Part shown: positions 44,294-64,000 of the stretch, one piece after another
How the letters are laid out: the number at the start of each line of letters is the position of its first letter
How positions within the stretch are numbered: the stretch's first letter is position 1
Translations under genes and position numbers: made by a program
Notes under the pieces: model-generated
Told to the model about the DNA's origin: nothing
Seen by the model: only the letters and a program-made list of their open reading frames with translations
Databases searched by the model: none
DNA from: Aeromonas rivipollensis
Lineage (GTDB): Bacteria > Pseudomonadota > Gammaproteobacteria > Enterobacterales > Aeromonadaceae
Assembly (NCBI RefSeq): GCF_037811135.1
Contig: NZ_CP149130.1
Span: 1,794,501 to 1,858,500 of the forward strand
Direction of reading: 5' to 3'
Length of the DNA: 64,000 bases

Positions 44294-44338
44294 GAATCTT
44301 GTCCTGAAAAGGGGGACGGATCCTTCTTCCTCGGGGAG

Positions 44339-44440
44339 AAGGTGCCCTAAGGGGGGATGAGGGGAGATCCCCTCACCCCAACCCTCTCCCTTTGGGAGAG
44401 GGAGCACATCATGCCTCTCCCGGTGAAGGGGAGGGGAATA
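44339..44440. repeat. GC-rich palindromic intergenic element (copy 1)
   Basis: Lies between acnD and prpF. Contains TGAGGGGA-GA-TCCCCTCA and CTCTCCC-TTT-GGGAGAG hairpins and a CTCCC/GGGAG-rich tail. In one frame it reads LPLPKGEGWGEG. A related element is at 61451-61530. Confidence 0.7.
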
Positions 44441-44447
44441 CCATATA

Positions 44448-48226: not shown

Positions 48227-48290
48227 CACAGGTTTCCTCATTCAGTCCGTTGAAGCGCCGGCTGCCAGCATGAGGCGGCCGGTCGGCATG

Positions 48291-49190
48291 TTATTCCTTG
48301 GTAGACAGGTCCTTGGTGAACAGCCTGTCCAGGGTCTGCTCGTAGTGGTGGTAGCCGAGGAAGTCGTAGAGGGACTCTCGGGTCTGCATGGTGTCGACCA
48401 CGGCACGCTGGTGGCCGTCGCGGCGAAGCTGCTGATAGACGTTGAGGGCGGCCTGGTTGGCGGCGCGGGCGGCGCTCAGGGGGTAGAGCACCATGTCGAC
48501 GCCGTGGGCAGCGAGGGCCTCCTTGTCAAACAGCTCCGTCTTGCCGAATTCGGTCATGTTGGCGAGGATGGGGACGCCAGCCGCCTGCTTGAAGCTGTCG
48601 TACTGGTGAAGTTCGGTGACCGCCTCGGCGAAGATCATGTCGGCCCCGGCGGCGGCGTAGGCCGCGGCGCGCTCCAGGGCCGAGCCCAGCCCTTCCACCG
48701 CCAGGGCGTCGGTGCGGGCCATGATGACGAAGCTCTCGTCCTGGCGGGCATCCACCGCCGCCTTGATGCGATCCACCATCTCGGCCATGCTCACCACCGC
48801 CTTGTTGGGCCTGTGGCCGCAACGTTTCTGGGCAACCTGATCCTCCATGTGGACGGCGGCGACCCCGCCGCGCTCGAAGGCACGGACGGTGCGGGCTATG
48901 TTGAAGGCGCCGCCCCAGCCGGTGTCGATGTCCACCAGCAGTGGCACCTGGGTGGCGGCGGTGATGCGTTCGGCATCGATGAGCACGTCGTTCATGGAGG
49001 TCATGCCGAGATCCGGCAGGCCATAGGAGGCGTTGGCCACCCCGGCACCGGACAGATAGAGGGCCTTGAAGCCGCTGCGTTCGGCCATCAGCGCCATGTA
49101 GGCGTTGATGGTGCCGACGATCTGCAGGGGTTTCTCATTGGCCAGCGCGGTGCGAAAACGCGCCCCGGCCGAGGGGGACAAGTTAGACAT
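48291..49190 (-). CDS. prpB: 2-methylisocitrate lyase
   Basis: 299 aa; cleaves 2-methylisocitrate to pyruvate and succinate, last step of the methylcitrate cycle. Signature KRCGHRP with catalytic Cys124; [13 protein letters not shown] binds Mg2+. ATG 49190 has AGGAG at 6 nt. First gene of the prp operon, divergent from the quinone reductase gene. No prpR regulator gene or prpE is in the window. Confidence 0.96.
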
Positions 49191-49247
49191 AGTGACTCCT
49201 TTCATGCTGCTCATGTTTTGCTGTGAATAGAACCATCTCACACTACG

Positions 49248-49559: not shown

Positions 49560-50540
49560 ATGGCCAACGCCATACGCTTTTATGAAACCGGGGGCCCGGA
49601 CGTGCTGCGCTACGAAGAGGTGGCGGTGGGCGAGCCCGGTCCCGGCCAGGTGCGTCTGCGTCATGCCGCGGTCGGCCTGAACTATGCCGACACCTATTTT
49701 CGCAACGGCACCTACCCCATCCCCATGCCCAATGGCCTCGGTGTCGAGGCGGCCGGGGTGGTGGAGGCGGTGGGCGAGGGGGTCAGCAACGTGGCGGTGG
49801 GCGATCGCGTCACCTACACCGGCTTTATCAACACCCTAGGCGCTTATTCTACCGAGCGCCTGATCCCGGCCGCCCCCCTCATCAGACTGCCGGACAGCAT
49901 CAGCTGCGAGACCGCCGCCGCCATGACAATGCGGGGCCTGACGTCTGCCTACCTGATGCGCCGCATCCATGACTTCAAGCCCGGTGACAGCATCTTGCTG
50001 CACGCGGCCGCGGGGGGCGTCGGCCTCATCGTCGCCCAGTGGGCCAAGCTGCTGGGGCTGACGGTGATAGGCACCGTCTCGAGCGACGCCAAGGCCGAGC
50101 TGGCCCGTGCCCACGGCTGCGACTTCACTATCGACTACAGCCGCGAAGATGTGGCCACCCGGGTGCGCGCCCTGACCGGCGGCGCCGGGGTCGAGGTGGT
50201 GTTTGACAGCGTCGGCAAGAGCACCTTCATGGGCTCGCTCGATTCCCTCAAGCGTCGCGGCCTCATGGTCTGCGTCGGCACCGCCTCCGGTCCCATCGAG
50301 GGCTTCAACCCGCAGCTGCTGGCCATGAAGGGCTCCCTCTACCTGACCCGTCCGGCGCTCGCCGACTACATTGCCGATCCCGCCGAGAAGGAGGCCCTGG
50401 CCGGCGAGCTGTTCGAACACGTGGCCAGCGGGCGGATCAAGATAGAGATCAACCAGCGTTACGCGCTGCAGGACGCAGCACAGGCTCACCGCGATCTCGA
50501 GTCGCGCCAGACCACGGGCTCCTCCGTGTTCATCATCTAG
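49560..50540 (+). CDS. Zinc-free quinone oxidoreductase (QOR family)
   Basis: 326 aa NADPH-dependent medium-chain reductase of the zeta-crystallin/QOR group. Seen: GLNYADTYFRNGTYP near residue 40, the nucleotide-binding AAAGGVGLIVAQWAK, and no zinc-ligand cysteines. ATG 49560 with GGAG upstream. It is the first gene of the plus-strand cluster, 73 bp before the TauD-like gene. It may reduce a quinone or an alpha,beta-unsaturated carbonyl intermediate; substrate not deducible. Confidence 0.88.
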   Translation: MANAIRFYETGGPDVLRYEEVAVGEPGPGQVRLRHAAVGLNYADTYFRNGTYPIPMPNGLGVEAAGVVEAVGEGVSNVAVGDRVTYTGFINTLGAYSTERLIPAAPLIRLPDSISCETAAAMTMRGLTSAYLMRRIHDFKPGDSILLHAAAGGVGLIVAQWAKLLGLTVIGTVSSDAKAELARAHGCDFTIDYSREDVATRVRALTGGAGVEVVFDSVGKSTFMGSLDSLKRRGLMVCVGTASGPIEGFNPQLLAMKGSLYLTRPALADYIADPAEKEALAGELFEHVASGRIKIEINQRYALQDAAQAHRDLESRQTTGSSVFII

Positions 50541-50613
50541 GCCAAGGATCCCAGGCCAGCCCGCACTGGAGGGCGGCGCCTGCAGCACTGACTTGTCATT
50601 CAGGGAGAGAGAC

Positions 50614-51462
50614 ATGCGTGTAGAACAACTGACCTGCCACATAGGCGCCGAACTGAGCGGCGTCAACCTGGCGGACGCCGTTCACGATGAGGGGCTGTTC
50701 GCCGAGATCCGTACCCTCTTGCTCAGGCACAGGGTGCTGTTCTTGCGCAAGCAGGATATCAGCCGCGCCGATCACGTGGCCTTCGCCCGCCGCTTCGGCG
50801 AGCTGGAGGATCACCCTGTGGCGGGCAGTGACCCGGAGAACCCCGGCCTGGTGCGCATCTACAAGTCCCCCGAGGTACCCAACGATCGCTACGAGAATGC
50901 CTGGCACACCGACGCCACCTGGCGCGCCCAACCGCCCATGGGGTGCGTGCTGCGCTGCGTGGAGTGTCCGCCCGTGGGGGGCGACACCCTCTGGGCCAAC
51001 ATGGTGGTGGCCTACGAGCAGTTGCCGGGGGAGATCAAGGAGAAGATCGCCGGCCTGCGTGCCCGTCACAGCATAGAGGCGAGCTTCGGGGCGGCCATGC
51101 CCATCGAGAAGCGGTTGGCCTTGAAGGCCCAGTTCCCGGATGCGGAGCACCCCGTGGTGCGCACCCACCCGGAGACCGACGAGAAGATCCTCTTCGTCAA
51201 CGCCTTCGCCACCCATCTCACCAATTTCCACACCCCGGCCCACGTGCGTGTCGGTCAGGACTACAGCATGGGGGGCAGCGATCTGCTGCGCTACCTCATC
51301 AGCCAGGCCTATATCCCCGAGTATCAGGTGCGCTGGCGCTGGCAGCCGGGCAGCATCGCCATCTGGGACAATCGCAGCACCCAGCACTATGCCGCCATGG
51401 ACTACCCCCCCAGCCATCGCAAGATGGAGCGGGCCGGGATCATGGGAGATACCCCCTTCTGA
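50614..51462 (+). CDS. TauD/TfdA-family Fe(II)/2-oxoglutarate dioxygenase
   Basis: 282 aa. The 2-His-1-carboxylate iron site is visible: His98-x-Asp100 (WHTDATW) and distal His258 (TQHYAAMDY), with the 2-oxoglutarate-binding Arg in HRKMERAGI. The family hydroxylates taurine, alkyl sulfates, aryloxy acids or carnitine precursors, so the substrate cannot be read from sequence alone. Start ATG 50614 follows AGGGAGAG; the ORF extension to 50593 is not needed. Lies between the quinone reductase and BKACE genes. Confidence 0.87.
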   Translation: MRVEQLTCHIGAELSGVNLADAVHDEGLFAEIRTLLLRHRVLFLRKQDISRADHVAFARRFGELEDHPVAGSDPENPGLVRIYKSPEVPNDRYENAWHTDATWRAQPPMGCVLRCVECPPVGGDTLWANMVVAYEQLPGEIKEKIAGLRARHSIEASFGAAMPIEKRLALKAQFPDAEHPVVRTHPETDEKILFVNAFATHLTNFHTPAHVRVGQDYSMGGSDLLRYLISQAYIPEYQVRWRWQPGSIAIWDNRSTQHYAAMDYPPSHRKMERAGIMGDTPF

Positions 51463-51543
51463 TCAAATCCCGGGCCCCGCGCCCGGGAGATATCACCACG
51501 CCCGGCTCTTCATGGAAGGCCAGCCAATTTAAGGAATGAACAG

Positions 51544-52596
51544 ATGCAATTTTTTGACGATTCCCTGCACCCGGAAAACATGGAAAAAGTGGTCATCACA
51601 GTGGCCCCCTATGGCCCAGAGTGGGCCCCCGGCGACTTCCCGGAAGACATTCCGGTGACCATGGAGGAGCAAGTCCAGAAGGCGGTCGACTGCTACGAGG
51701 CGGGAGCCACAGTGCTGCACCTGCACGTACGCGAGCTGGACGGCACCGGCTCCAAGCGCCTCTCCAAGTTCAACGAGCTGATCGCCGGGGTGCGCAAGGC
51801 GGTGCCCGACATGATCATCCAGGTCGGCGGCTCCATCTCCTTCGCGCCGGAAGGGGAAGGCGAGGCGGCCAAGTGGCTCTCCGATGACACCCGCCACATG
51901 CTGGCCGAGCTGACCCCGAAGCCGGATCAGGTCACTGTGGCCATCAACACCACCCAGATGAACATCATGGAGCTGCTCTACCCCGAGTACCTGGCTGGCA
52001 CCTCCCTGGCGAACCCCGCCTACCAGGCGGCCTACAGCGAGATGACGGTGCCGGCCGGCCCGGCCTGGGTGGCGGAGCACCTCAAGCGGCTGATGACCAA
52101 TGGCATCCAGCCCCACTTCCAGCTGACCGGCATGCACGCCCTCGAGACCCTGGAGCGGCTGGTGCGCCGGGGTGTCTACATGGGCCCGCTCAACCTCACC
52201 TGGATCGGTATCGGCGGCGGCTTCGACGGTCCCAATCCGTTCAACTTCATGAACTTCGTCCACCGTGCGCCGGACGGTGCCTGCGTCACCGCCGAGTCGC
52301 TGCTCAAGAACGTGCTGCCCTTCAACATGATGGCCATGGCCATGGGGCTGCACCCCCGCTGCGGCATCGAGGACACCATCATAGGCCAGCACGGCCAGCG
52401 CATGAGCTCGGTGGAGCAGATCCGCCAGTGCGTGCGGGTCGCTCACGAGCTAGGCCGCGAGGTGGCCAACGGTAAGGAGGCGCGCGCCATCTACCGCATC
52501 GGCGTGCAGTACGACAGCGTGGAGGAGACGCTGCTGGCCAACGGCATGGCGCCGAACCGGACCCCGGGCCAGAAAGGGGTGCCACAGCGGTCCTGA
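51544..52596 (+). CDS. BKACE (DUF849) beta-keto acid cleavage enzyme
   Basis: 350 aa TIM-barrel, zinc-dependent enzyme of the 3-keto-5-aminohexanoate-cleavage family: a beta-keto acid plus acetyl-CoA gives acetoacetate plus the acyl-CoA. Metal motif HLHVR (His59, His61) is present, as are VITVAPYGPEW and the QVGGSISF loop. Members differ in substrate (3-keto-5-aminohexanoate, dehydrocarnitine and others); this one is unassigned. AAGGA before ATG 51544. A CoA-transferase fit to use the acetoacetate is encoded 3.6 kb downstream in the same cluster. Confidence 0.9.
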   Translation: MQFFDDSLHPENMEKVVITVAPYGPEWAPGDFPEDIPVTMEEQVQKAVDCYEAGATVLHLHVRELDGTGSKRLSKFNELIAGVRKAVPDMIIQVGGSISFAPEGEGEAAKWLSDDTRHMLAELTPKPDQVTVAINTTQMNIMELLYPEYLAGTSLANPAYQAAYSEMTVPAGPAWVAEHLKRLMTNGIQPHFQLTGMHALETLERLVRRGVYMGPLNLTWIGIGGGFDGPNPFNFMNFVHRAPDGACVTAESLLKNVLPFNMMAMAMGLHPRCGIEDTIIGQHGQRMSSVEQIRQCVRVAHELGREVANGKEARAIYRIGVQYDSVEETLLANGMAPNRTPGQKGVPQRS

Positions 52597-52603
52597 GCCA
52601 GAT

Positions 52604-52635
52604 GGGTCGCCGCAAAAATAGCGGGGCGGCGACCC
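52604..52635 (+). other. Strong stem-loop between BKACE and MFS genes
   Basis: Arms GGGTCGCCGC / GCGGCGACCC, 12-nt loop, no T-run. It may stabilise or partly terminate the upstream mRNA within a 190-bp gap. Confidence 0.6.
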
Positions 52636-52786
52636 CCCAACACTGTTTGCCAAACGGCCTTGCGCCTTGCAGTATGCAGCACGCAGGGCAACTGAGTGAT
52701 GAATCAATATTGTCTGGCCGGGGGCCTCTGCCGCCGGTCCGTCGACCGAAAAACCCAACCCAATTTGCAGTAGCGCGAGGGATTGT

Positions 52787-54109
52787 ATGGCTACGTATCA
52801 TATCGATGACGACCCAGAGGCCGGCAAGGTTGCCGTGCCCCGTCGTTATGCCTGGATAGTGTTTGCGCTGACCTTCGGTCTGCTCATCTCCGATTACATG
52901 TCGCGTCAGGTGCTCAACGCCGTCTTTCCCATGCTCAAGGGGGAGTGGGCGCTCTCGGACACCCAGCTGGGCCTGCTCAGCGGCATAGTGGCGCTCATGG
53001 TCGGGCTCTTGACCTTTCCCCTCTCCCTGCTCGCCGATCGTTTCGGGCGAGTCAAGAGCCTGGCCCTGATGGCCGCGCTCTGGAGCCTGGCGACCCTGGG
53101 CTGCGCCCTGGCCCAGAACTACGAACAGATGTTCGTCGCCCGCTTCCTGGTGGGGGTGGGGGAGGCCGCCTACGGCAGCGTCGGCATCGCCGTGGTGGTC
53201 TCTGTGTTCCCGCGGGAGATGCGGGCCACCCTCTCCGGCGCCTTCATCTCCGGCGGCATGTTCGGCTCCGTGCTCGGCATGGCCACCGGGGGCGTGCTGG
53301 CGCACCTCCTCGGCTGGCGCTGGGCCTTCGCCGGCATGGCCCTGTTCGGCCTGGTGCTGGCGGCGCTCTACCCCATGGTGGTGAAGGAGTCGCGCATCGC
53401 GACCCCTTGCCGCGCAACCAAGAGCAAGGCTGGAGAAAGAAGCCCGCTGCGCAGTCTCTATTCCAGCCGCTCGGTGATCTCGGCCTATGTGGGCAGCGGT
53501 CTGCAGCTGTTCGTCGGCGGCACCGTCATCGTCTGGATGCCGAGCTATTTCAACCGCTACTACGGGCTGGACACGGACAAGGCGGGGCTCATGGCCGCCA
53601 TCATAGTGCTGTGCAGCGGCGCCGGCATGATCCTCTGCGGCATGCTGAGCGATCGGCTCTGCCGCAACCGGCCGGATCGCAAGATAAGCCTCGCCATCGC
53701 CTATTGCCTCGGGAGCTGTCTGCTGCTCTCCCTGGCGTTTGCCCTGCCGGCCGGGCTGCCCCAGCTGCTGCTGATAGGTCTGGGGATGTTCATCGCCACC
53801 GGCACCTCGGGTCCCGCCGGTGCCATGGTGGCCAACCTCACCCACGCCAGCGTGCACGGCACGGCCTTTGCCACCCTGACCCTTGCCAACAACCTGCTCG
53901 GGCTGGCCCCAGGCCCCTTCATCACCGGCAAGGTGTCCGACCACATAGGCCTGGACAACGCCTTCCAGCTGGTGCCCCTCATCAGCGTCGCGGCGGCCGC
54001 CGTCTTCTTCTACGGCAAGCGCCACTACCACAAGGACGTGGCCCGGCTCGACGGTGACGCCGGCCGCCAGATCATCACTGGTCCCCAGGGCTCGGAGGTG
54101 AGGGCATGA
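52787..54109 (+). CDS. MFS transporter
   Basis: 440 aa, 12 predicted membrane helices. The MFS loop 2-3 motif is seen as DRFGRVKSLALM, and the N-terminal helix carries SDYMSRQVLNAVFP, a form seen in organic/aromatic acid-type symporters. Likely imports the substrate of the cluster, but this is inferred from context. AGGGA before ATG 52787. The stop overlaps the next ATG (ATGA), so it is coupled to the DsbA-Rieske gene. Confidence 0.88.
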   Translation: MATYHIDDDPEAGKVAVPRRYAWIVFALTFGLLISDYMSRQVLNAVFPMLKGEWALSDTQLGLLSGIVALMVGLLTFPLSLLADRFGRVKSLALMAALWSLATLGCALAQNYEQMFVARFLVGVGEAAYGSVGIAVVVSVFPREMRATLSGAFISGGMFGSVLGMATGGVLAHLLGWRWAFAGMALFGLVLAALYPMVVKESRIATPCRATKSKAGERSPLRSLYSSRSVISAYVGSGLQLFVGGTVIVWMPSYFNRYYGLDTDKAGLMAAIIVLCSGAGMILCGMLSDRLCRNRPDRKISLAIAYCLGSCLLLSLAFALPAGLPQLLLIGLGMFIATGTSGPAGAMVANLTHASVHGTAFATLTLANNLLGLAPGPFITGKVSDHIGLDNAFQLVPLISVAAAAVFFYGKRHYHKDVARLDGDAGRQIITGPQGSEVRA

Positions 54110-55089
54110 GGCTCAGCATCGAGGTCTATGTCGATTTCATCTGCCCCTGGTGCCTCATCGGCAAACGCCAGCTGGTGCAGGCCCTGGCCCAACTGCGGGC
54201 AGAGCGGCCCGAGGTGCGGGTCGATGTGCACTGGCGCGGGGTGCAGCTGCTGCCCGCGCTGCCGGTGCAGGGGGAGGATTTTCACGACTTCTACCTGCGG
54301 CGCCTTGGCAGCGAACAGGCCATGGGCCTGCGTCAGGCCCAGGTGCGGCAGGCGGCGGCCAGCGTCGGCATTGCGCTGGACTTTGGCCATATCTCCCGCA
54401 TGCCGAATACGGCCGATGCCCACCGCCTGTGGCAGCGGGCCTGCCAGCTGGGATCGCCGGCGCAGCTGGACGAGTTGCTGGAGCGGCTGTTCGCCTGTCA
54501 CTTCCTGCACGGCGGGGATCTGGGGGATGGTGCTACCTTGCTGGGGCTGGCCGAGGCGGCGGGCTTTGGGTCCGCCGATCTGGTGAGCTGCCTGCAGGGG
54601 GACGGGACTCCCTTCCTCTGTGATCTGCCCGGGGCGGCCCAGCAGGGGGTGCCCAGCTTCGTGTTGGGGGAGGGCTTGACTCTCAGCGGGGCCCAGCCGG
54701 TGGCGAAGCTGCTGGCCAGCCTGCGCCAGGCGCTGGATGCGGCGGCCGGGGCGACGGCTGCGCGGATCTGGGTGCCAGCCGAGCGAGTGCCTGAACCGGG
54801 CAAACGTATCCTCATCGAGGCCCAGGGCAAGAGCCTGGTGCTGTTCAACGTCGATGGCCGCTTCCACGCCATCGACGACGGCTGCCCCCACCAGGGGGCC
54901 TCATTGTGCGGCGGTCGGCTGGAGGGGGAGGTGATCCAGTGCCTGGCCCATGGCCTGCGCTTCAACCTGACGACGGGGCTGCTGTTGAACTCGACCCAGC
55001 TCAGGGTCGGCCGCTACCCGGTCGAGCGGGAGGGAGAGGGGCTCTCCATCCTCATCCCATCCCGGGAGGTCAGCCCATGCTCACCCTGA
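54106..55089 (+). CDS. DsbA/FrnE-like thioredoxin-fold protein fused to a Rieske ferredoxin
   Basis: 327 aa, two domains. Residues 1-~215: cytoplasmic DsbA-family (FrnE/HCCA-isomerase-like) fold with CPWC at 13-16 and the cis-Pro loop GVPSFVLG. Residues ~222-320: Rieske-type [2Fe-2S] domain with Cys260-Pro-His262 and Cys279-x-x-His282, all four ligands present. There is no signal peptide or membrane segment. Overlaps the MFS gene by 4 nt and YeiH by 13 nt, so it is firmly in the operon. The combination suggests a redox/electron-transfer or isomerase role; I do not know a described protein with this architecture. Confidence 0.85.
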   Translation: MRLSIEVYVDFICPWCLIGKRQLVQALAQLRAERPEVRVDVHWRGVQLLPALPVQGEDFHDFYLRRLGSEQAMGLRQAQVRQAAASVGIALDFGHISRMPNTADAHRLWQRACQLGSPAQLDELLERLFACHFLHGGDLGDGATLLGLAEAAGFGSADLVSCLQGDGTPFLCDLPGAAQQGVPSFVLGEGLTLSGAQPVAKLLASLRQALDAAAGATAARIWVPAERVPEPGKRILIEAQGKSLVLFNVDGRFHAIDDGCPHQGASLCGGRLEGEVIQCLAHGLRFNLTTGLLLNSTQLRVGRYPVEREGEGLSILIPSREVSPCSP

Positions 55090-56096
55090 CCATGACGGAT
55101 CGCTATCAGCGGGTGCGAACCCTGGCCCCCGGCATGGCGGTCAGCATCACGGTGGCGGCCGCCGCCACCTTCCTCGCCGAACACTACGGCGCCCCCGTGC
55201 TGCTGTTCGCCCTGCTGCTCGGCATGGGGCTGAACTTCCTCAGCGCCGAGGGGACCTGCAAGGCGGGCATCGAATTCACCGCGCGCAGCGTGCTGCGGAT
55301 CGGGGTCGCCCTGCTCGGCATGCGCATCACCCTGGGACAGATCGCCGAGCTGGGCTGGATGCCGGTGCTGCTGGTGGTCACCCTGGTGGTGGTCACCATC
55401 GGGCTCTCGGTGGTAGCGGCCAGGCTGATAGGGTTCCAGCGGCTGTTCGGCATGCTGACCGGGGGGGCGACCGCCATCTGCGGCGCCTCCGCCGCCCTGG
55501 CCCTGGCCGCCTCCTTGCCCAATCACCCCCAGAAGGAGCGCGCCACCCTGTTCACCGTGATCGGGGTCTCGGTGCTCTCCACCCTGGCGATGATCCTCTA
55601 CCCCATGATCGCCCGCTTCTTCGAGCTGACGCCGGTGGAGGCGGGGGTCTTCCTCGGCGCCACCATTCACGACGTGGCCCAGGTGGTGGGCGCCGGCTAC
55701 AGCATGTCCACCGAGACAGGTGACGTGGCGACCGTGGTCAAGCTGATGCGGGTCGCCATGCTGCTGCCGGTGATCCTGGTGGCCGCCATGATCACCCGCA
55801 GGCAGGGGGCGGATCCCGCCTCTGGCAAGCGTCCGCCCCTGCTGCCCCTGTTTGCCGTCGGCTTCCTGGTGCTGGCCTGCATCAACAGCACAGGCTGGGT
55901 GCCCGTCCCGTTGCAGGAGGGGGTCAACGGCCTGTCACGCTGGTGCCTGGTGATCGCCATCGCCGCCATCGGCATGAAGACCCAGCTCAAGGAGCTGGCG
56001 GCGGTCGGCATCAAGCCCATCCTGCTGATGGTGGGGGAGACCGCCTTCCTGGTCGCCCTGGTGCTGACCCTGATGCATTGGGGCATCAAGCCTTAG
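55077..56096 (+). CDS. YeiH/UPF0324 family membrane protein (TauZ-like putative sulfate exporter)
   Basis: 339 aa, about ten membrane helices. Family marks: ALLLGMGLNFL, GVALLGMRITLGQI, GGATAICGASAA, GATIHDVAQVVGAGY and IAAIGMKTQL near the C-terminus. The family includes TauZ, proposed to export sulfite or sulfate in taurine degradation. Start: ATG 55077 has GGAGG at 8 nt; the longer ORF from 54906 belongs to another frame of the upstream gene. Overlaps the DsbA-Rieske gene by 13 nt. Confidence 0.87.
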   Translation: MLTLTMTDRYQRVRTLAPGMAVSITVAAAATFLAEHYGAPVLLFALLLGMGLNFLSAEGTCKAGIEFTARSVLRIGVALLGMRITLGQIAELGWMPVLLVVTLVVVTIGLSVVAARLIGFQRLFGMLTGGATAICGASAALALAASLPNHPQKERATLFTVIGVSVLSTLAMILYPMIARFFELTPVEAGVFLGATIHDVAQVVGAGYSMSTETGDVATVVKLMRVAMLLPVILVAAMITRRQGADPASGKRPPLLPLFAVGFLVLACINSTGWVPVPLQEGVNGLSRWCLVIAIAAIGMKTQLKELAAVGIKPILLMVGETAFLVALVLTLMHWGIKP

Positions 56097-56185
56097 GAAG
56101 GTCATGGATGCCGACTCAAAAAAACAGCCATAAAACGAACGCGCCCCTGTGGCCAACGGACTAGCCAGAGAGCAGAGAGGTAGTT

Positions 56186-56881
56186 ATGAACAAGGTTTAT
56201 CCCAGCGCCCAGGCCGCCCTGAGCGGCCTGGTGCAGGACGACATCACCATCGCCTCGGGGGGCTTCGGCCTGTGCGGCATCCCCGAGCAGCTCATCGAGG
56301 CGCTGAAGGACAGCGGCAAGGGCGGCTTCACCATCATCAGCAACAACTGCGGGGTGGATGACTTCGGGTTGGGGCCGCTGCTCCACAGCCGCCAGATAAA
56401 GAAGATGATCTCCTCCTACGTGGGGGGCAACAAGGAGTTCGAGCGCCAGTACCTCGCGGGGGAACTTGAGCTTGAGTTCACCCCCCAGGGGACGCTCGCC
56501 GAGAAGCTCAGAGCCGGCGGCGCCGGCATCCCGGCCTTCTTCACCCGCACCGGCTACGGCACGCTCATTGCTGAGGGCAAGGAGACCCGCCAGTTTGATG
56601 GCGAGTGGTATGTGATGGAACACGCCCTGACCGCCGACATCGCGCTGATCAAGGGGGCCAAGGCCGACAAGGCGGGCAACCTGATGTTCAACAAGACGGC
56701 GCGCAACTTCAACCCGCTCTGTGCCAAGGCGGGCCGGGTCTGCGTGGCCGAGGTGGAGGATATAGTCGAGGTGGGGGAGCTGGCCCCGGACGAGATCCAC
56801 CTGCCCGGCATCTATGTGCAGCGGCTGGTCTTGAACCCCAACCCCGAGAAACGCATCGAAGTGCGCACGGTGAGAAGCTGA
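56186..56881 (+). CDS. scoA: 3-oxoacid CoA-transferase subunit A
   Basis: 231 aa; alpha subunit of a SCOT-type CoA-transferase (succinyl-CoA + acetoacetate to succinate + acetoacetyl-CoA, or a related acid). [14 protein letters not shown] near residue 24, [12 protein letters not shown], and [16 protein letters not shown] in the middle. GAGAGG precedes ATG 56186. scoB is 104 bp downstream, an unusually wide gap that contains a decayed copy of the scoA 3' end. Confidence 0.92.
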
Positions 56882-56985
56882 TTGCGCAACGCTCATGCCC
56901 TGCAGGGATGTGCCGCCACAGGCGCTCTATCCACCTTATTTTGAAATGCGCATCGACCCGCGCACAGTGAGAAAGGACTTATCAC

Positions 56986-57615
56986 ATGGCCTGGACCCGT
57001 GAAGAGATGGCGCAGCGCGCCGCAAAGGAGCTGCAAGACGGCTTCTACGTCAACCTGGGGATCGGCCTGCCGACCCTGGTGGCCAACTACATCCCGGACG
57101 GCATGGAGGTGTGGCTGCAGAGCGAGAACGGCCTGCTCGGCATAGGCCCCTTCCCGAGCGAGGCCGAGCTGGATCCGGATCTTATCAACGCCGGCAAGCA
57201 GACCATCACCACACTGCCCGGCAGCAGCTTCTTCGACAGCGCCGAGAGCTTTGCCATGATCCGCGGCGGCCACATCAACCTGGCCCTGCTCGGGGCCATG
57301 CAGGTCTCCGAGCGTGGCGATCTCGCCAACTGGATGATACCGGGCAAGCTGGTCAAGGGGATGGGGGGAGCCATGGATCTGGTGGCCGGGGTCAAGCGGG
57401 TGGTGGTGCTGATGGAGCACTGCGCCAAGGGGGGCGAGCACAAGATACTGGAGTGGTGCTCCCTGCCGCTGACCGGGGTCGGGGTGGTGGATCGCATCAT
57501 CAGCGATCTCGCCGTGCTGGACGTGACCCCCGGCGGCCTTCGCCTAGTGGAGCTTGCCCCCGGCATCGAGTTCGAGGCGCTGCAAGCCGCCACCGGCTGC
57601 GCCATAGCGCGCTGA
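56986..57615 (+). CDS. scoB: 3-oxoacid CoA-transferase subunit B
   Basis: 209 aa; beta subunit carrying the catalytic glutamate, Glu47 in [10 protein letters not shown]. Other family marks: [13 protein letters not shown] and [19 protein letters not shown] precedes ATG 56986. Last gene of the first plus-strand unit; a terminator follows. With BKACE in the same unit, acetoacetate is the likely CoA acceptor; dehydrocarnitine-type acids are alternatives. Confidence 0.92.
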
Positions 57616-57629
57616 CGCTTAGCCATCCA

Positions 57630-57664
57630 CGGGGAGGGCGCTCACTTACTCCCCGCTATTTTTT
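57630..57664 (+). terminator. Terminator after scoB
   Basis: Stem CGGGGAG / CTCCCCG with a 12-nt loop, then CTATTTTTT. Separates the two halves of the cluster. Confidence 0.8.
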
Positions 57665-58122
57665 CTCGCCATCTACGTCTCTTGCCCCTTGGCTATCCTG
57701 CACCGACCCGTCGCCTCCCGCTTGTCTCCATCTCCTGTTTCCTTCGCGCCTTGTCTGTCGCCCGGATCACTGTTCTCAGCTGAACAAGGGCTGTATGGGG
57801 CCGGTCGTCGACGAGCGAATCCCGCGCCAGCCGCGGGATGCATCCCCTGTCATCAAATGAAAAGTGGCTGACGTTCAATGGCAAGCGCCGCCCTGGAACT
57901 AGGCCTTACAGTCGGCACACAAGAGAGAAAGACCGTCTCATCATAGTGAGCGACACCCCGGGGCCGATGCAAAAACAGAGCTGCATCCTCGAGAGCCAAA
58001 CAAGGCGGTGCGCCATGAGGAAGGTCATCTCCCCTTGCATGAAGAAAAAGCCAACGGAAACGGCGATTAAACACAGAACAACAAATAACAAATAACAGAT
58101 GACGATACTCGGAGAGACTGTA
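57665..58122 (+). promoter_or_regulatory. Upstream region of the DUF1302 operon
   Basis: About 460 bp without a supported gene. It holds the candidate operator at 57849-57890. The last ~80 bp are A-rich (AACAAATAACAAATAACAG) and form the mRNA leader. GGAGAG at 58111 serves ATG 58123. Confidence 0.55.
57849..57890 (+). promoter_or_regulatory. Candidate operator upstream of the DUF1302 operon
   Basis: GTCATCAAATGAAAAGTGGC begins at 57849; with the next two bases (TG) it matches 20 of 22 positions of 49451-49472. A weaker second half-site (ATGGCAAGCGCCG, from 57878) follows with the same 21-bp period. 232 bp before the start codon. Confidence 0.55.
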
Positions 58123-60036
58123 ATGGATTACAAGCACACGAGTCATGGTTGCGGTGCCCTGCGCCTCAGCCTGCTGGCGACGGCCATCGCGGCCGTTCTC
58201 CTGCCAACCGTTCAGGCGGTCGAGATCGACACGGACAGTGAAGACTGGTCCGTGCGTTTCGACAACACCGGCAAGTTCAACTACGGCGTGCGCACCGAGA
58301 GCGCGGACTCCCGCATGCTCGCCACCCCGAACAACAACGACGGTGACTACAACTTCAAAGATTCCGGCGACACCGTCACCACCCGCTTCGATCTCTTGAC
58401 CGAGCTGGACGTGGTGAACAAGGGCAATACCGGTTTTCGCATCAGTGCGGCGAGCTGGTATGACTATGCCTATGAGGATGTCGGTTCGGATGAGAACCCC
58501 TTTATCAATGGCAACAGCGCGACGTCCGGCATCATTGGACAGCCGCCCGTAGCGGGCAACCGTCACCTGAGCCCCTATGCCGATCGCTACTACCATGGCC
58601 CCTCCGGCGAGCTGCTCGATGCCTTCGTGTTCCACAACATGGAGTTGGGCGACGAATCCCTGCTCGGGGTCAAGATAGGCCAGCACAACATCTTCTGGGG
58701 GGAAACCCTGCTGAGCCCGGTGCACGCCCTCAGCTATGGCCAGTCCGGCCTGGATCTCGCCAAACTTGCGGCATCCCCGGGGACGGAGGCGAAAGAGCTG
58801 TTCGTGCCCCGCAACCAGATCTCCGCCTCCTTCACCCTGAACCCGGAGTGGACCTTCGCCGCCCAGTACTTCCTCGACTGGAACGCCGCCCGGCTGCCGG
58901 AAGCCGGCACCTACTACGGCAGCTCCGATCTGGTGGGCTTCGGGGCCCAGTCCTTCCTGTTGGGTCACACCGGTGGCCCCGGCCTGGCCGGGCCAAATGG
59001 TACCCTGACCAATATCCGCCGCGGCGAAGACATAGAGCCGGGCAAGCACGGTGACTGGGGCGTCATGACCAAGTGGTCCCCCGAGGCGCTGGATGCCACC
59101 CTGGGTGCCTTCTACCGCCGCACCGCCGACATCCTGCCCCAGGCGGTACTGGATGCACGTGGCATGACGATCAGAGGCGCCGCGCCGTTGCCGGCCGGGG
59201 CGATCCCCAACCTGCGCAACTCCATCGCGACCACCAGCTACTCCCTGGCCTATGGCGAAGACATCGATATCTTCGGCCTCAGCCTTTCCAAGGACGTGGC
59301 CGGGGTGAGCGTCGGCAGCGATCTGAACTATCGCCACAAGATGCCGCTTGCCAGCATCCCGGCACTGCGCAGCGCCTCGGGACCGGGCGGGTTGGCCAAC
59401 GGCTTCGGCGCCCTGCCTCCCCGTCACGCCGGGACCGGGGTGATCACCGATGACACCGATGGCTACAGCGCCACCGGCGAGACCCTGCACTGGACCCTCA
59501 ACGGCCTGATGACCTTCGCGGACACGGCGCTGTTCGATGGCGCCGCCCTGCTGGGGGAGCTCTACTACAGCAACCTGCTGAGCCTGGATGACCATAACAA
59601 GGCGCTCTACAAGGGCGAGGAGAGCTATCAGGGCATCGACAAGCCCACCCGGGATAACTGGGGGCTGGCGGTCAACTTCACCCCGACCTGGTATCAGGTG
59701 TTTCCGGGCGTCGACATGAGCATGCCGCTCTCGGTCAACTGGGGGCTGAGTGGTATCTCTCCGGTGCAGGCCGGCGGTGCGAAAGACACCGGCAACTACG
59801 CGGTGGGGCTCGGTGCCACCCTCTACAACCAGTATTTCGTCGATCTGAAGTACGTGGACTCCTTCGGCAAGTCTGCCGACTGTAATGACGGCGCCACCGA
59901 TGGCTCCACCCCCAACGCCCTGGATGCGACCCAGCGCAACACCTGTTATGCCGGTGGTTACTCCTCCTTCTCCGGTGGCGGCGCCACCACGGAAGACAGG
60001 GGTGCCGTCTACCTGACCCTGAAGACCACTTATTGA
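58123..60036 (+). CDS. DUF1302 family outer-membrane beta-barrel protein
   Basis: 637 aa. Signal peptide at residues ~1-33 (hydrophobic LSLLATAIAAVLLP, cleavage after VQA). The mature part is rich in alternating strands (DWSVRFDNTGKFNYG, NKGNTGFRISAASWYDY) and ends VYLTLKTTY, an outer-membrane barrel C-terminus with a terminal aromatic residue. DUF1302 proteins occur beside DUF1329 and RND genes in clusters for hydrophobic substrates; function unproven. ATG 58123 has GGAGAG at ~8 nt. Its stop lies 26 nt before the DUF1329 start. Confidence 0.88.
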   Translation: MDYKHTSHGCGALRLSLLATAIAAVLLPTVQAVEIDTDSEDWSVRFDNTGKFNYGVRTESADSRMLATPNNNDGDYNFKDSGDTVTTRFDLLTELDVVNKGNTGFRISAASWYDYAYEDVGSDENPFINGNSATSGIIGQPPVAGNRHLSPYADRYYHGPSGELLDAFVFHNMELGDESLLGVKIGQHNIFWGETLLSPVHALSYGQSGLDLAKLAASPGTEAKELFVPRNQISASFTLNPEWTFAAQYFLDWNAARLPEAGTYYGSSDLVGFGAQSFLLGHTGGPGLAGPNGTLTNIRRGEDIEPGKHGDWGVMTKWSPEALDATLGAFYRRTADILPQAVLDARGMTIRGAAPLPAGAIPNLRNSIATTSYSLAYGEDIDIFGLSLSKDVAGVSVGSDLNYRHKMPLASIPALRSASGPGGLANGFGALPPRHAGTGVITDDTDGYSATGETLHWTLNGLMTFADTALFDGAALLGELYYSNLLSLDDHNKALYKGEESYQGIDKPTRDNWGLAVNFTPTWYQVFPGVDMSMPLSVNWGLSGISPVQAGGAKDTGNYAVGLGATLYNQYFVDLKYVDSFGKSADCNDGATDGSTPNALDATQRNTCYAGGYSSFSGGGATTEDRGAVYLTLKTTY

Positions 60037-60062
60037 GTCAAGCGACCGAGTCGGAGAACAAG

Positions 60063-61424
60063 ATGATGAAACATAAACAGACCCTGCTGGCCCTGTCCCT
60101 CGCCCTGGCCTTCACCAGCCAAGCCCAGGCGGCCGTCTCCAGCAGCGAAGCACAACAGCTTGGCACCAGCCTGACCCAGGTCGGCGCCGATGCCGCGGCC
60201 AACGCCGACGGCTCCATTCCTGCCTATGCCGGCGGCCTGACCACGCCACCGGCCGGCTTCAAGGCAGGGGACAGCATGCGCCCGGATCCCTATGCGGGGG
60301 ACAAGCCGCTGCTGGTGATCGACGGCAAGAACGCATCGCAGTACAAGGGCGAACTGACCGCCACCACCGCCGAGTTGCTGAGCCGTTTCCCGGAGTTCAG
60401 AGTCGATGTCTATCCGACTCACCGCAGCGTGGCCTTGCCCAAGGCGGTGCTGGACAACACCAAACAGAACGCCCTGAACGCCAAGACCCTGGCGGGGGGC
60501 ATGGCGGTGGATCAGGTGCTGCCGGGCATTCCTTTCCCGATCCCCAAGACAGGGGCCGAGGCGATGTGGAACTTCCTGCTGCGCTACCAGGGGGTGAACA
60601 TCGCCACCAAATATGACTCCTGGAACGTGGACGCCGCCGGCACGGCGGCGCTCTCCACCACGGGGCAGGCGTTCATCAACTACGCCATCTACGAGGACAT
60701 GGCCAAGCCCATCTCGGCCAAGGACACCTACTACCAGATGAAGCTGTACTACACCGGGCCCGCCCGTCGTGCCGGTGAAGCCATCATGCTGCGCGATGCC
60801 GCCAACCCCCTTGAGCAACCGCGCAAGGCCTGGCAGTACCTGCCGGGGCAGCGCCGGGTCAAGCTGGCACCGAACCTGGCCTATGACACCCCGAACCCGG
60901 GTACCTCGGGCGCCGGCACCTATGACGACGTCTTCGTCTTCAACGGTGCGCTGGACCGCTTCGATTGGAAGCTGGTGGGCAAGCAGGAGATGATAGTTCC
61001 CTACAACACCTACAAGCTGACCTATGAGCCGGATGCCAAGGCGCTGACCACCCCGAACTTCCTGTCGCCGGATCACGTGCGCTGGGAGAAACACCGGGTC
61101 TGGGTGGTGGAGGGCAACCTCAAGGCCGGCGAGCGCCACATCTATGCCAAGCGTCGCTTCTACCTGGACGAAGACAGCTGGGTGGCCCTGGCCTCCGATC
61201 AGTACGACGCCCGTGGTCAGCTCTATCGCGGCTCCTTCGCCTTCCTGAGCCAGAGCTACGACAAGCAGACCCCGGATGCCACCCCCTTCATGATCTATGA
61301 CCTGGTGGCGGGGACCTACAACATCAACGGTGTGGTGGGCCCCTACGGCGGCATCAAGTACGGCGCCTCCCTGTCCAAGGCGAAGTGGTCGCCGGAGTCC
61401 CTGGCTGGCGCCGGGATCCGCTAA
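60063..61424 (+). CDS. DUF1329 family periplasmic protein
   Basis: 453 aa with a Sec signal (MMKHKQTLLALSLALAFTSQ, cleavage after AQA). Typical DUF1329 stretches: LTQVGADAAANADGSIPAY near the mature N-terminus and VWVVEGNLKAGERHIYAKR in the C-terminal half. The fold of this family resembles lipoprotein-binding LolA/LolB, suggesting it ferries a lipophilic ligand; role unproven. GGAG before ATG 60063 (ATG 60066 possible). Second gene of the DUF1302 operon. Confidence 0.88.
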   Translation: MMKHKQTLLALSLALAFTSQAQAAVSSSEAQQLGTSLTQVGADAAANADGSIPAYAGGLTTPPAGFKAGDSMRPDPYAGDKPLLVIDGKNASQYKGELTATTAELLSRFPEFRVDVYPTHRSVALPKAVLDNTKQNALNAKTLAGGMAVDQVLPGIPFPIPKTGAEAMWNFLLRYQGVNIATKYDSWNVDAAGTAALSTTGQAFINYAIYEDMAKPISAKDTYYQMKLYYTGPARRAGEAIMLRDAANPLEQPRKAWQYLPGQRRVKLAPNLAYDTPNPGTSGAGTYDDVFVFNGALDRFDWKLVGKQEMIVPYNTYKLTYEPDAKALTTPNFLSPDHVRWEKHRVWVVEGNLKAGERHIYAKRRFYLDEDSWVALASDQYDARGQLYRGSFAFLSQSYDKQTPDATPFMIYDLVAGTYNINGVVGPYGGIKYGASLSKAKWSPESLAGAGIR

Positions 61425-61450
61425 GCGGTAACAAGCCGTGCTGATCCCCA

Positions 61451-61530
61451 CTGACCCCCTCCCGGCCTCCCCCTTCAAAAGGGAGTAGGTGAATCGCACC
61501 CTCCCCTTGCCAAGGGGAGGGCTGGGGTGG
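61451..61530. repeat. GC-rich palindromic intergenic element (copy 2)
   Basis: Between the DUF1329 and YCF48-like genes. Contains CTCCCCTTG-CC-AAGGGGAG and CCCCCTTCAAAAGGGAG hairpins. Same family as the element at 44339-44440. Confidence 0.7.
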
Positions 61531-61574
61531 GGTGATTGTGGCCATCCGATGGGTTTCGAAGACAAGGACGTGGT

Positions 61575-62690
61575 ATGGGTTCATTCAACAAGTTGGCGCC
61601 CTGGCTGTGCTGCGCCCTGCTGCTGCCGGGTCTCGCGCAAGGGGCAGAGGCGATGGCAGGGCAGAGCGGGGAGACGCTGGCCACGCAAGGGGCCGAATAC
61701 AGAGACGTGCTGGACTTGCCGGCCAAACCGAGCGCGCTGGCCCAGCGCAGCCCCCTGCTGGATCTGGCCCGTGCCGGCAGCCGGCTGGTGGCGGTAGGGC
61801 AGCGGGGTCACATCCTCTACTCGGACGACGAGGGAAGGCGCTGGCAGCAGGCCAGGGTGCCGGTGAGCTCGGATCTCACTGCCGTCACCTTCCCCACTTC
61901 CGAGCAGGGCTGGGCCGTGGGGGGGGATGGGGTGGTGCTGCACAGCCAGGACGGTGGCGCCAGCTGGCAAAAACAGCTGGATGGCAGCCAGATAGGGGAT
62001 CTGGTCCTGCGCCATTACTCGGCCTTGGCCAAGGCCGAGCCGGACAACGAACAGTGGGCCGCCCTGGTGGAAGAGGGCCAGCGCCTGGTGGAGGAGGGGG
62101 CCGACAAACCCCTGCTCGACGTCTGGTTTGAGGACGACAAAGTCGGCTACGTGGTCGGGGTCTTCAACCTGATACTGCGCACCCAGGATGGCGGCCTGCA
62201 CTGGACGCCCATGCAGGATCGCACCGACAACCCGGATGGGCTCCATCTCAATGCCATCGCCCGGGCCGGTGACGCCCTCTATCTGGTGGGCGAGCAGGGC
62301 CTGCTGCGCAAATGGGAGCCGCAGACGCAGCGCTTCGTCTCACTGCCCAGCCCCTATGACGGCAGCTTTTTCGGCCTTATCGGCCGCCCGGATGAGGTGA
62401 TCGTCTATGGCCTGCGGGGCCATGTCTATCGCAGCACGGATGGAGGCGAAAACTGGACCCGGCTCGTGAGCCCGCTGCCCATCAGCATCAGCGCCGCTAT
62501 GCAGGGGGCCGATGGCCAGTTCCGCCTGTTTACCCAGGCCGGCCATATGCTGCTGCAACGGGGCAACGAGCCGCTGACCCTGGCACCCCTGGCCGAGCCA
62601 TCGCCGGTGGCGGGCGCCGCCCTGACCGCCGATGGCACCCTGGCGCTGGTGGGCAGCCGCGGGGTGCGCACCCTGACGGTGGTCAAATAA
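61575..62690 (+). CDS. YCF48-related beta-propeller exported protein
   Basis: 371 aa with a signal peptide (residues ~1-24, cleavage after AQG). Repeated BNR/Asp-box propeller units: LYSDDEGRRWQQ, LHSQDGGASWQK, LRTQDGGLHWTP and YRSTDGGENWTR. Resembles YCF48/Hcf136-type assembly factors and glycosyl-hydrolase-like propellers; no catalytic role is evident. AAGGA 7 nt before ATG 61575. Located between DUF1329 and the RND gene, a linkage seen in several proteobacteria. Confidence 0.86.
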   Translation: MGSFNKLAPWLCCALLLPGLAQGAEAMAGQSGETLATQGAEYRDVLDLPAKPSALAQRSPLLDLARAGSRLVAVGQRGHILYSDDEGRRWQQARVPVSSDLTAVTFPTSEQGWAVGGDGVVLHSQDGGASWQKQLDGSQIGDLVLRHYSALAKAEPDNEQWAALVEEGQRLVEEGADKPLLDVWFEDDKVGYVVGVFNLILRTQDGGLHWTPMQDRTDNPDGLHLNAIARAGDALYLVGEQGLLRKWEPQTQRFVSLPSPYDGSFFGLIGRPDEVIVYGLRGHVYRSTDGGENWTRLVSPLPISISAAMQGADGQFRLFTQAGHMLLQRGNEPLTLAPLAEPSPVAGAALTADGTLALVGSRGVRTLTVVK

Positions 62691-62750
62691 GGTTTGTCAA
62701 AGCAGGCCGTCACCGGATGACGGCCCAATAACGATAACGAGGATCCAGAC

Positions 62751-64000
62751 ATGGGCCATGTGAAGCAAGATTCGATGCCGGTGATCCGCGAGCTGAGCGC
62801 GTTCGACAGGCACTCCGGCAACCTGCTGGAGCGGCTGGTGTTCAACCACAGGGCGCTCTTCATGCTGGCGATGACGCTGGCGACCCTGGTGCTTGGCTAC
62901 ATGGGCGCGACTCGCCTGGCGCTGGCACCCAGCTTCGAGAAGATGATCCCCCAGAGCCAGCCCTACATCAAAAACTTCCTGGAGAACCGGGACTCTCTGC
63001 GTGGCCTCGGCAACTCGGTGCGGGTGGTGGTGGAGAATACCCGGGGGGACATCTTCGACCCCGACTATTTAAGCGTTCTCAAGCGGGTCAATGACGAGCT
63101 GTTCCTGACCGAAGGGGTCGACAGGGCCTGGATGAAGTCCCTCTGGAGCCCGGCAGTGCGCTGGACCGAGGTGACCGAGGAGGGCTTCCAGGGCGGGCCC
63201 GTGATGCCGGATGCCTATCAGGGATCGGCCTCTGACATCGAGCAGCTGCGCCAGAACATCAACAGAGCCGGCATCGTCGGCAGTCTGGTGGCGAGCGATT
63301 TCAAGTCCAGCATGCTGATAGTGCCCCTGCTGGACAAGGCCTCTGTAACCGGCAAGCCCCTCAATTACCATGACTTCTCCCAGCGCATCGAGGCGCTGCG
63401 CAGCCAGATAGAGTTCGCAGGCGCCCCCCATCAGGCGGGGGAGGAGGGGACGGGCCAGTACAAGATCCGGGTGATCGGCTTTGCCAAGCTGGTGGGCGAT
63501 CTCATCGACGGCCTCATCCAGGTGATCCTCTTCTTCGCCCTGGCGGTGGCGACCTCGCTCGCCATCATCTTCCTCTACACCCGCTGCGTGCGCAGCACCC
63601 TGCTGGTGGTGGGCTGCTCTCTGGTCGCCGTGATCTGGCAGCTCGGCATCATCGCCTGGCTCGGCTACGCCATCGACCCTTACTCTGTGCTGGTGCCTTT
63701 CCTCATCTTCGCCATCGGGGTCTCCCACGCAGCCCAGAAGATGAACGGCATCATGCAGGACATCGCCCGCGGCACCCACCGCCAGATAGCGGCGCGCTAC
63801 ACCTTCCGCCGCCTCTTCCTCGCCGGGGTCACGGCGCTGCTGGCCGATGCGGTGGGGTTCGCCGTGCTGATGCTGATCGACATCCCCGTCATCCAGGATC
63901 TCGCCATCACCGCCAGCATCGGCGTGGCGGTGCTCATCTTCACCTCGCTGCTGCTGATGCCGGTGGCCCTCTCCTATGTGGGGGTGGGCCGCAAGGCGGC
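62751..64000 (+). CDS. MMPL/RND-family transporter (N-terminal part, cut by window end)
   Basis: 416 codons are visible and the frame is open at the window edge. First membrane helix at ~39-58 (ALFMLAMTLATLVLGYMGA), then a large periplasmic loop (~60-245), then a helix bundle from ~255 (VILFFALAVATSLAIIFLYT) with VPFLIFAIGVSHAAQ, typical of hydrophobe/amphiphile RND (MMPL) pumps. AGGA 8 nt before ATG 62751. Probably works with the DUF1302, DUF1329 and YCF48-like proteins across the envelope. Confidence 0.88.
   Translation, partial: MGHVKQDSMPVIRELSAFDRHSGNLLERLVFNHRALFMLAMTLATLVLGYMGATRLALAPSFEKMIPQSQPYIKNFLENRDSLRGLGNSVRVVVENTRGDIFDPDYLSVLKRVNDELFLTEGVDRAWMKSLWSPAVRWTEVTEEGFQGGPVMPDAYQGSASDIEQLRQNINRAGIVGSLVASDFKSSMLIVPLLDKASVTGKPLNYHDFSQRIEALRSQIEFAGAPHQAGEEGTGQYKIRVIGFAKLVGDLIDGLIQVILFFALAVATSLAIIFLYTRCVRSTLLVVGCSLVAVIWQLGIIAWLGYAIDPYSVLVPFLIFAIGVSHAAQKMNGIMQDIARGTHRQIAARYTFRRLFLAGVTALLADAVGFAVLMLIDIPVIQDLAITASIGVAVLIFTSLLLMPVALSYVGVGRKA

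Follow-up and report, generated by a model that had tools for sequence, protein, structure and literature searches.

TauD-family 2-oxoglutarate dioxygenases are known mainly as sulfur scavengers. In soil, sulfonates belong to the principal forms of organic sulfur, as stated in the abstract of PMC4267179. Advenella mimigardefordensis degrades an organosulfur acid, 3,3'-dithiodipropionate (DTDP), to sulfite and propionyl-CoA, with prp genes clustered at the locus according to the passages of PMC5373536 on this route. The AmeABCD system of Castellaniella defragrans is described in sections of PMC6394551 as a monoterpene transporter. Here we examine a gene cluster beginning at position 49560 of a 64,000-nucleotide stretch (the window) of the complete 4.55-Mb chromosome of Aeromonas rivipollensis. 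The cluster unites a TauD-family dioxygenase, an enzyme of the DUF849 or β-keto acid cleavage enzyme (BKACE) fold encoded by the only PF05853 gene of the genome, a YeiH-type exporter and an AmeABCD-like envelope set, and it lies beside a methylcitrate (prp) operon. We find a real, conserved catabolic unit whose BKACE chemistry is doubtful, and the breakdown of a sulfonate is the best lead to its function.

The region 49560–64000 carries twelve plus-strand genes, and open reading frames and Pfam/NCBIfam matches bear out the families that the original prediction had named. The core consists of a quinone oxidoreductase of the MDR family (qor, 49560..50540), scoring 368 bits against the NF008024 cut-off of 348 and having QOR and 2-haloacrylate reductase among its PDB relatives; the dioxygenase (tauD, 50611..51462, PF02668); the DUF849 enzyme (51544..52596, PF05853, 204 bits); and an MFS carrier (52787..54109, MFS_1), whose best NCBIfam match, TIGR00893, is far under its cut-off. 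A scan seeded with the DUF849 protein, taking one genome per species, gave 378 relatives, of which the best 80 loci were kept, so that the sample is biased towards the BKACE of the window. Neighbouring genes were counted from tblastn searches that used the proteins of the cluster as queries, supplemented by codon-scored gene finding. Since qor, tauD, BKACE and the MFS gene are contiguous in 76 of the 80 loci (4/4 from Aeromonas and 72/76 others), the gene set is not a chance neighbourhood but a conserved catabolic and transport unit, as the original prediction had supposed when it proposed co-occurrence of the genes as a check. Among the 80 loci, qor is present in 79, tauD in 80, the MFS gene in 77, DsbA in 75, Rieske in 76, YeiH in 68, AraC in 66, a hydrolase in 62, DUF1302 in 61, DUF1329 in 56, YCF48 in 43, RND in 4, an acyl-CoA ligase in 7, scoA and scoB in 10 each and prp in 4; because many of the stretches stop inside the DUF1302 block or ahead of it, the counts for later genes are lower bounds.

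The closest named loci are those of Aeromonas media, lusitana, aquatica and sanarellii (BKACE 96–98% identical, same gene order), and the core occurs also in Citrobacter, Burkholderiales, Novosphingobium, Azoarcus and Actinomycetota. Rearranged but recognisable sets lie on plasmid records of Caballeronia, Cupriavidus, Novosphingobium, Azoarcus, Diaphorobacter, Rhodococcus and Tsukamurella; among the 12 plasmid-record loci opened, two (L084 and L094) retain only part of the set. The set is joined in some Burkholderiales by a porin and a TctC-type binding protein (in Diaphorobacter by annotation, in others by reading translations).

The cluster is also larger than originally described. In the genome's own continuation past the window (L002), the RND gene is followed by an AraC regulator (L002:2845-3942, minus strand), a PF06821 serine hydrolase (L002 ~4190-4780, plus) and an AMP-dependent acyl-CoA ligase (L002 ~4839-6497, plus, window-equivalent to ~68996). 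These three belong to the unit, because all of them adjoin the core in Citrobacter, and AraC and the hydrolase accompany it in most other loci. The order in two Citrobacter loci is AraC on the minus strand, divergent from hydrolase-ligase-qor-tauD-BKACE-MFS-Rieske; a Pluralibacter locus has the Citrobacter-type order with DsbA and scoAB added, and in most other loci AraC and the hydrolase stand downstream of the qor-to-YeiH part or of scoAB, ahead of DUF1302. This block of nearly 20 genes, common to many soil and water bacteria, probably works as one unit, tentatively for a sulfonated compound.

Within it the genes of the dioxygenase and the DUF849 enzyme are mostly adjacent. With TauD as the query, 398 genomes of the phylum gave 20 matches, and 14 of these genomes, counting that of the window, have an ortholog. 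The surroundings of 16 matches besides its own, in 15 stretches (two overlapping), contain a BKACE relative in 13 cases, and in the other two (L130 and L134) the contig ends beside tauD; for one of the three remaining matches, in genome G058, a PF05853 gene adjoins tauD. Of 111 tauD places, 97 have BKACE as the very next gene. In five Pseudomonas loci (L007:5869-11047, and L011, L024, L028 and L052) a second tauD-BKACE pair, 75–79% and 63–65% identical, lies directly upstream of qor-tauD-BKACE. Such adjacency and duplication are as expected of a specificity module. As an observation in its own right, two loci hold a divergent BKACE version inside an otherwise conserved cluster: in L120, whose gene order is Pseudomonas-like, and in L132 from Aeromonas, BKACE is 65–66% identical while tauD is 87 and 88% and qor 85 and 96% identical. 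In L132 (BKACE 65%) qor, MFS, YeiH and scoAB are 93–96%, DsbA 84% and DUF1302 87% identical; a joint exchange of tauD and BKACE in this locus was considered and rejected, since tauD, at 88%, does not fall below DsbA or DUF1302.

The active site of the DUF849 enzyme departs from that of canonical BKACE. In BKACE15 the catalytic base is Glu171, and the Glu171Leu variant is inactive (PMC11961710, in part); all BKACE sequences are reported to have a tyrosine (Tyr173 in PdKce, Tyr145 in Kce) that is thought to be catalytic, with Phe at this place going together with other chemistry (PMC12871164, in part). We aligned the subfamily with canonical members both by MAFFT and by hhalign profiles (E 6e-32), and counted residues in 97 subfamily sequences of 61–98% identity from 92 loci, the window not counted. 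Gln193 of the window enzyme aligns to Glu171 of BKACE15 and Thr195 to Tyr173 in both alignments. The Glu171 position is Gln in 97/97 members, and the Tyr173 position is Thr in 85, Ala in 7, Ser in 2, Val in 1 and Tyr in 2; both Glu and Tyr are present in one canonical BKACE that came up in the search and was set apart as a contrast. In the MAFFT alignment the (S/T)TGG loop is V-GGS in the subfamily, two residues shorter. The enzyme nevertheless has the DUF849 fold, on a comparison that was a VIA-align second look at Foldseek's own candidates, and it matches PF05853; the zinc-site motifs HxH and RxGxED are present in 97/97 members. Glu26, which corresponds to Kce Glu14, is conserved in 95/97, and Glu251 is present in 97/97, where BKACE15 has Leu by the profile alignment. 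The chain also differs in length, with 350 residues compared with 282–334 for Kce and BKACE15 (8RIP) chains. The annotation of the subfamily as '3-keto-5-aminohexanoate cleavage protein' is not supported by the active site, and because the usual catalytic residues are replaced the enzyme may do something new. An earlier classification of DUF849 is stated, in part of PMC4922564, to have included groups without BKACE activity. The flavophos enzyme BsfD is, like the window enzyme, a DUF849 protein in which the catalytic Tyr is replaced, and its chemistry is non-canonical, but BsfD is biosynthetic, makes a phosphonate and has Phe in place of Tyr (PMC12871164, relevant passages).

The dioxygenase is conserved as an enzyme of the TauD type with one end of its substrate site probably altered. 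The Fe triad HxD...H and the 2-oxoglutarate-binding Arg266 are kept in 93/93 homologues, and the structure 5vn6 is that of a close homologue (536 bits). In E. coli TauD we take His70 and Arg270 to hold the sulfonate, and Tyr73 and Asn95 to hold the amine end. His70, Phe159, Phe206 and Arg270 are invariant in 93/93 homologues and Ser158 is kept in 91/93, whereas Tyr73 is replaced by Ala in 85/93 and Asn95 by Glu in 93/93. Because His70/Arg270 are invariant while Tyr73/Asn95 are replaced, the oxyanion end of the substrate is likely kept and its other end different. The enzyme resembles taurine dioxygenase at all Fe, 2-oxoglutarate and His70/Arg270 positions, and is unlike it in Tyr73/Asn95 and in its AraC-linked catabolic setting, with no tauABC transporter among the cluster genes.

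The original prediction had missed a link to sulfite, which comes from the exporter (55062..56096, Cons_hypoth698/YeiH, PF03601). Salmonella YeiH gives sulfite resistance, according to part of PMC12880088. The window protein is 54–57% identical to four compared exporters from taurine operons, three with genes flanked by xsc and pta and the fourth next to xsc, against 30% for E. coli YeiH. Five YeiH neighbourhoods were inspected away from the cluster loci; these four are among them, and the fifth (79%) is on a plasmid of Pseudomonas aeruginosa H15. Among the 38 plasmid YeiH matches listed below 60% identity, at least 25 lie beside an xsc match (coordinates compared by eye) and two more do so by annotation; 9 of the xsc-adjacent ones are from one species, and the other 11 of the 38 are undetermined or apart. 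Besides the 68 of 80 loci, to which L019 of Pseudomonas citronellolis LMG 18378 belongs, yeiH accompanies the cluster in Novosphingobium, in L127–L129 of the TauD-seeded search of the phylum and, as a distant version (32%), in Rhodococcus. In the YeiH tree the row of the window falls in no starred set, so that this kinship rests on identity and gene context and not on the tree; a sequence search of the PDB gave no YeiH relative. Kinship with xsc-linked exporters is the best clue to the pathway.

The H15 plasmid, a river plasmid, carries a DUF1302/DUF1329/YCF48/RND block with a YeiH 79–80% identical to that of the window (NZ_CP093017, 361745-418000; L207 and L201). Within ~30 kb it also has a TauD (64%), a ligase, an AraC gene, the sulfite dehydrogenase gene soxC and a sulfurtransferase gene, and genes for beta-oxidation flank these on either side. 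Three TauD/TfdA genes and one gene of the 2,4'-dihydroxyacetophenone dioxygenase family were also seen in this region.

A possible fate of the carbon is indicated by the prp operon, prpF-acnD-prpC-prpB, on the minus strand at 43091..49241, divergent from qor. PrpF was identified by Pfam (PF04303), and prpB, prpC and acnD by reading and by tblastn against an annotated plasmid prpB/prpC/acnD/prpF locus; the acnD reading frame as listed starts too far upstream. The divergent operon that the original prediction had linked to the cluster does adjoin it in Aeromonas: prpB is divergent to qor in all seven cluster-positive Aeromonas loci examined besides the window (L003–L006, L132/L199, L186 and L198, some of which may be the same strain twice). 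In five cluster-negative Aeromonas genomes prpB is located elsewhere. Three cluster-negative genomes (L182, L183 and L184) have a prpB 87–90% identical to that of the island, but their prp operon is of another type, because prpC is just 50% identical. A different arrangement of the same link exists in Caballeronia grimmiae (L083), where qor-tauD-BKACE-MFS-hydrolase-Rieske runs directly into prpB-prpC-acnD-prpF in one direction.

Distribution in Aeromonas is patchy, with BKACE at ≥95% identity in 8 of 37 genomes (the own genome included) and at 66% in 3 more. The genes that flank the island, yccA and the gene of L002:8269-9915, adjoin each other in one of three cluster-negative genomes viewed, an empty site; the stretches of the other two do not cover both flanks. 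The G+C content is 64.6–68.0% in parts of the island, 61.2 and 62.6% in two stretches before it and 63.5–64.0% after it.

As the leading explanation we tentatively prefer a catabolic island, linked to AraC, that breaks down an organic sulfonic acid, probably amphiphilic, by oxidative desulfonation. Transport of the compound or its products would fall to the MFS carrier and the AmeABCD-like envelope set, and the hydrolase and acyl-CoA ligase would prepare or activate acids. TauD would hydroxylate the sulfonate-bearing carbon, which releases sulfite and leaves a carbonyl, and YeiH would export the sulfite. Were TauD to remove a sulfonate positioned beta to a carboxylate, it would yield a β-keto acid, and a keto-acid enzyme would then be a chemically sensible partner for it. 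The quinone-reductase-like enzyme would reduce an activated double bond, the DUF849 enzyme would cleave the keto acid by a mechanism other than that of canonical BKACE, and carbon would end as propionyl-CoA, as the prp operon suggests, and, with scoAB, as acetoacetate. Computation establishes the gene content, its conservation, the conserved TauD active site, the relation of YeiH to xsc-linked exporters, the replaced BKACE residues and the link to prp; a sulfonate as substrate, its beta-sulfo position, the sequence of steps, regulation by AraC and all enzymatic activities are inferred. The fullest form of this proposal has TauD convert a beta-sulfo acid to a β-keto acid and sulfite, and the rewired DUF849 enzyme perform a new C–C cleavage that supplies propionyl-CoA to the linked methylcitrate operon, in a widespread undescribed pathway with tauD-DUF849 as its specificity module; taken whole, this is unlikely. 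Advenella DTDP catabolism is alike in turning an organosulfur acid into sulfite and propionyl-CoA with prp genes nearby and in invoking a PSE-family exporter, but differs in using a thiol dioxygenase and a desulfinase, TauD and BKACE being unmentioned in the passages of PMC5373536 that describe it. Candidate substrates taken from general knowledge were acesulfame, sulfosuccinate, alkyl sulfates and sulfonolipids, none of which is favoured by any result. Were a sulfonate the substrate, TauD enzymes would serve carbon catabolism from Aeromonas and Pseudomonas to Burkholderiales, Novosphingobium and Actinomycetota, the DUF849 subfamily would gain a testable function, and AmeABCD-like sets another kind of setting.

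Several results weigh against a sulfonate. PlaO1 also has His70 and Arg270 and is, to our knowledge, not a sulfonate enzyme, so these residues are no proof of one. TauD scores 249 bits, below the 313 cut-off of the taurine-dioxygenase equivalog NF007104, and YeiH, which matches PF03601, scores 154 bits, below the TIGR00698 cut-off of 232.6. Sulfite export is not a constant feature, because yeiH is lacking from the stretch examined (some are cut) in 30 of 104 tauD loci, including those of Citrobacter, Tsukamurella and Caballeronia. The scanned cluster genes contain no sulfite oxidase, sulfonate ABC transporter or sulfatase family. The H15 plasmid does not carry the same pathway throughout, as its two stretches have no DUF849 or qor match. 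Finally, prp is found in none of the 76 stretches L007–L082, and its only occurrences next to the cluster are those in Aeromonas and in a single Caballeronia. It is possible, though doubtful, that the same unit handles a sulfur-free substrate, with TauD oxidising a hydrophobic carboxylic acid, an ether or an ester-derived acid and YeiH exporting another anion. The loci lacking yeiH suit this explanation, as does the breadth of the TauD family, which includes sulfate-ester, phenoxy-acid and natural-product enzymes; in the portions seen of the respective papers, the AmeABCD set serves growth on monoterpenes (PMC6394551) and DUF1302/DUF1329 genes of P. putida are needed on Tween 20 (PMC10866462). 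The kinship of YeiH with xsc-linked exporters and the sulfite dehydrogenase of the H15 relative speak for sulfur instead.

The original prediction held that the chemistry closes through BKACE, a β-keto acid giving acetoacetate and an acyl-CoA, possibly propionyl-CoA, with ScoAB and the prp enzymes taking the products, whether or not sulfur is involved. This we regard as improbable, given Gln for Glu171 in 97/97 members, Thr, Ala, Ser or Val for Tyr173 in 95/97 and the shortened loop, when Glu171Leu is reported to abolish BKACE15 activity (PMC11961710, in part) and a DUF849 enzyme with Tyr replaced by Phe to do different chemistry (PMC12871164, in part). A carnitine or quaternary-amine pathway, named in the original prediction as a possible refutation, would have a dioxygenase of the γ-butyrobetaine hydroxylase type and a BKACE acting on dehydrocarnitine. 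The Glu found at the Kce Glu14 position in 95/97 members would agree with it, on what we presume to be the role of Glu14, and a SAR11 region is described as having BKACE, butyrobetaine dioxygenase and carnitine dehydrogenase together (part of PMC12421898). However, no family of the carnitine dehydrogenase or choline/betaine kind occurs among the scanned cluster genes, the dioxygenase is, among well-characterised enzymes, most closely related to TauD, and the envelope set suits hydrophobic compounds, which together make this pathway very improbable.

The envelope set consists of a predicted outer-membrane DUF1302 protein (AmeA-like by family, 58099..60036), a predicted periplasmic DUF1329 protein (AmeB-like, 60060..61424), a YCF48-like protein (YCF48/PSII_BNR, AmeC-like, 61572..62690) and an 836-residue HAE3/MMPL RND transporter (AmeD-like, 62751..64000, cut by the window end and running on to window-equivalent 65261), all on the plus strand. 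The order is that of the AmeABCD type, in which DUF1302, DUF1329/LolA-like, COG4447 (photosystem II assembly-like) and HAE3 RND proteins follow one another, the likeness being by family (PMC6394551, in part); the RND protein scores 139 bits, below the 352 cut-off of the HAE3 model TIGR00921. The window set differs in being joined to the TauD/DUF849/QOR/YeiH cluster, with no monoterpene gene among the scanned cluster genes. The original claim that no described pathway has this gene set thus stands for the whole, none being found among the papers listed from open-licence PMC (absence there is weak evidence), but not for these four genes, whose arrangement was already described. Between the MFS and YeiH genes, a single 327-residue frame (54106..55089, plus strand) fuses a FrnE-like DsbA domain with CPWC to a Rieske ferredoxin. 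The two are separate genes in Pseudomonas (for example, L133), and the fusion suggests a possible direct electron link between the domains.

In four Pseudomonas loci a gene of the MmgE/PrpD family lies upstream of qor (by Pfam in L071, by clustering in L043, L045 and L057). An Rfam scan of positions 40000–64000 and a tRNA scan of the whole window gave nothing, and consensus promoters (1 found, 1.6 expected) and terminators (10 found, 6.9 expected, sd 2.7) are near chance. Subunits A and B of a 3-oxoacid CoA-transferase are encoded by scoA (56186..56881) and scoB (56986..57615), both on the plus strand and above the cut-offs of TIGR02429 and TIGR02428. Acetoacetate as a product is suggested by scoAB only, and these genes are present in 10 of the 80 loci. 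Beyond the island, at L002:11480-15532, a few kilobases past the ligase, lie the tyrosine-degradation genes for HPD, HGD, FAH and maleylacetoacetate isomerase, identified by reading; because these would make acetoacetate from tyrosine, the Aeromonas scoAB could alternatively serve them.

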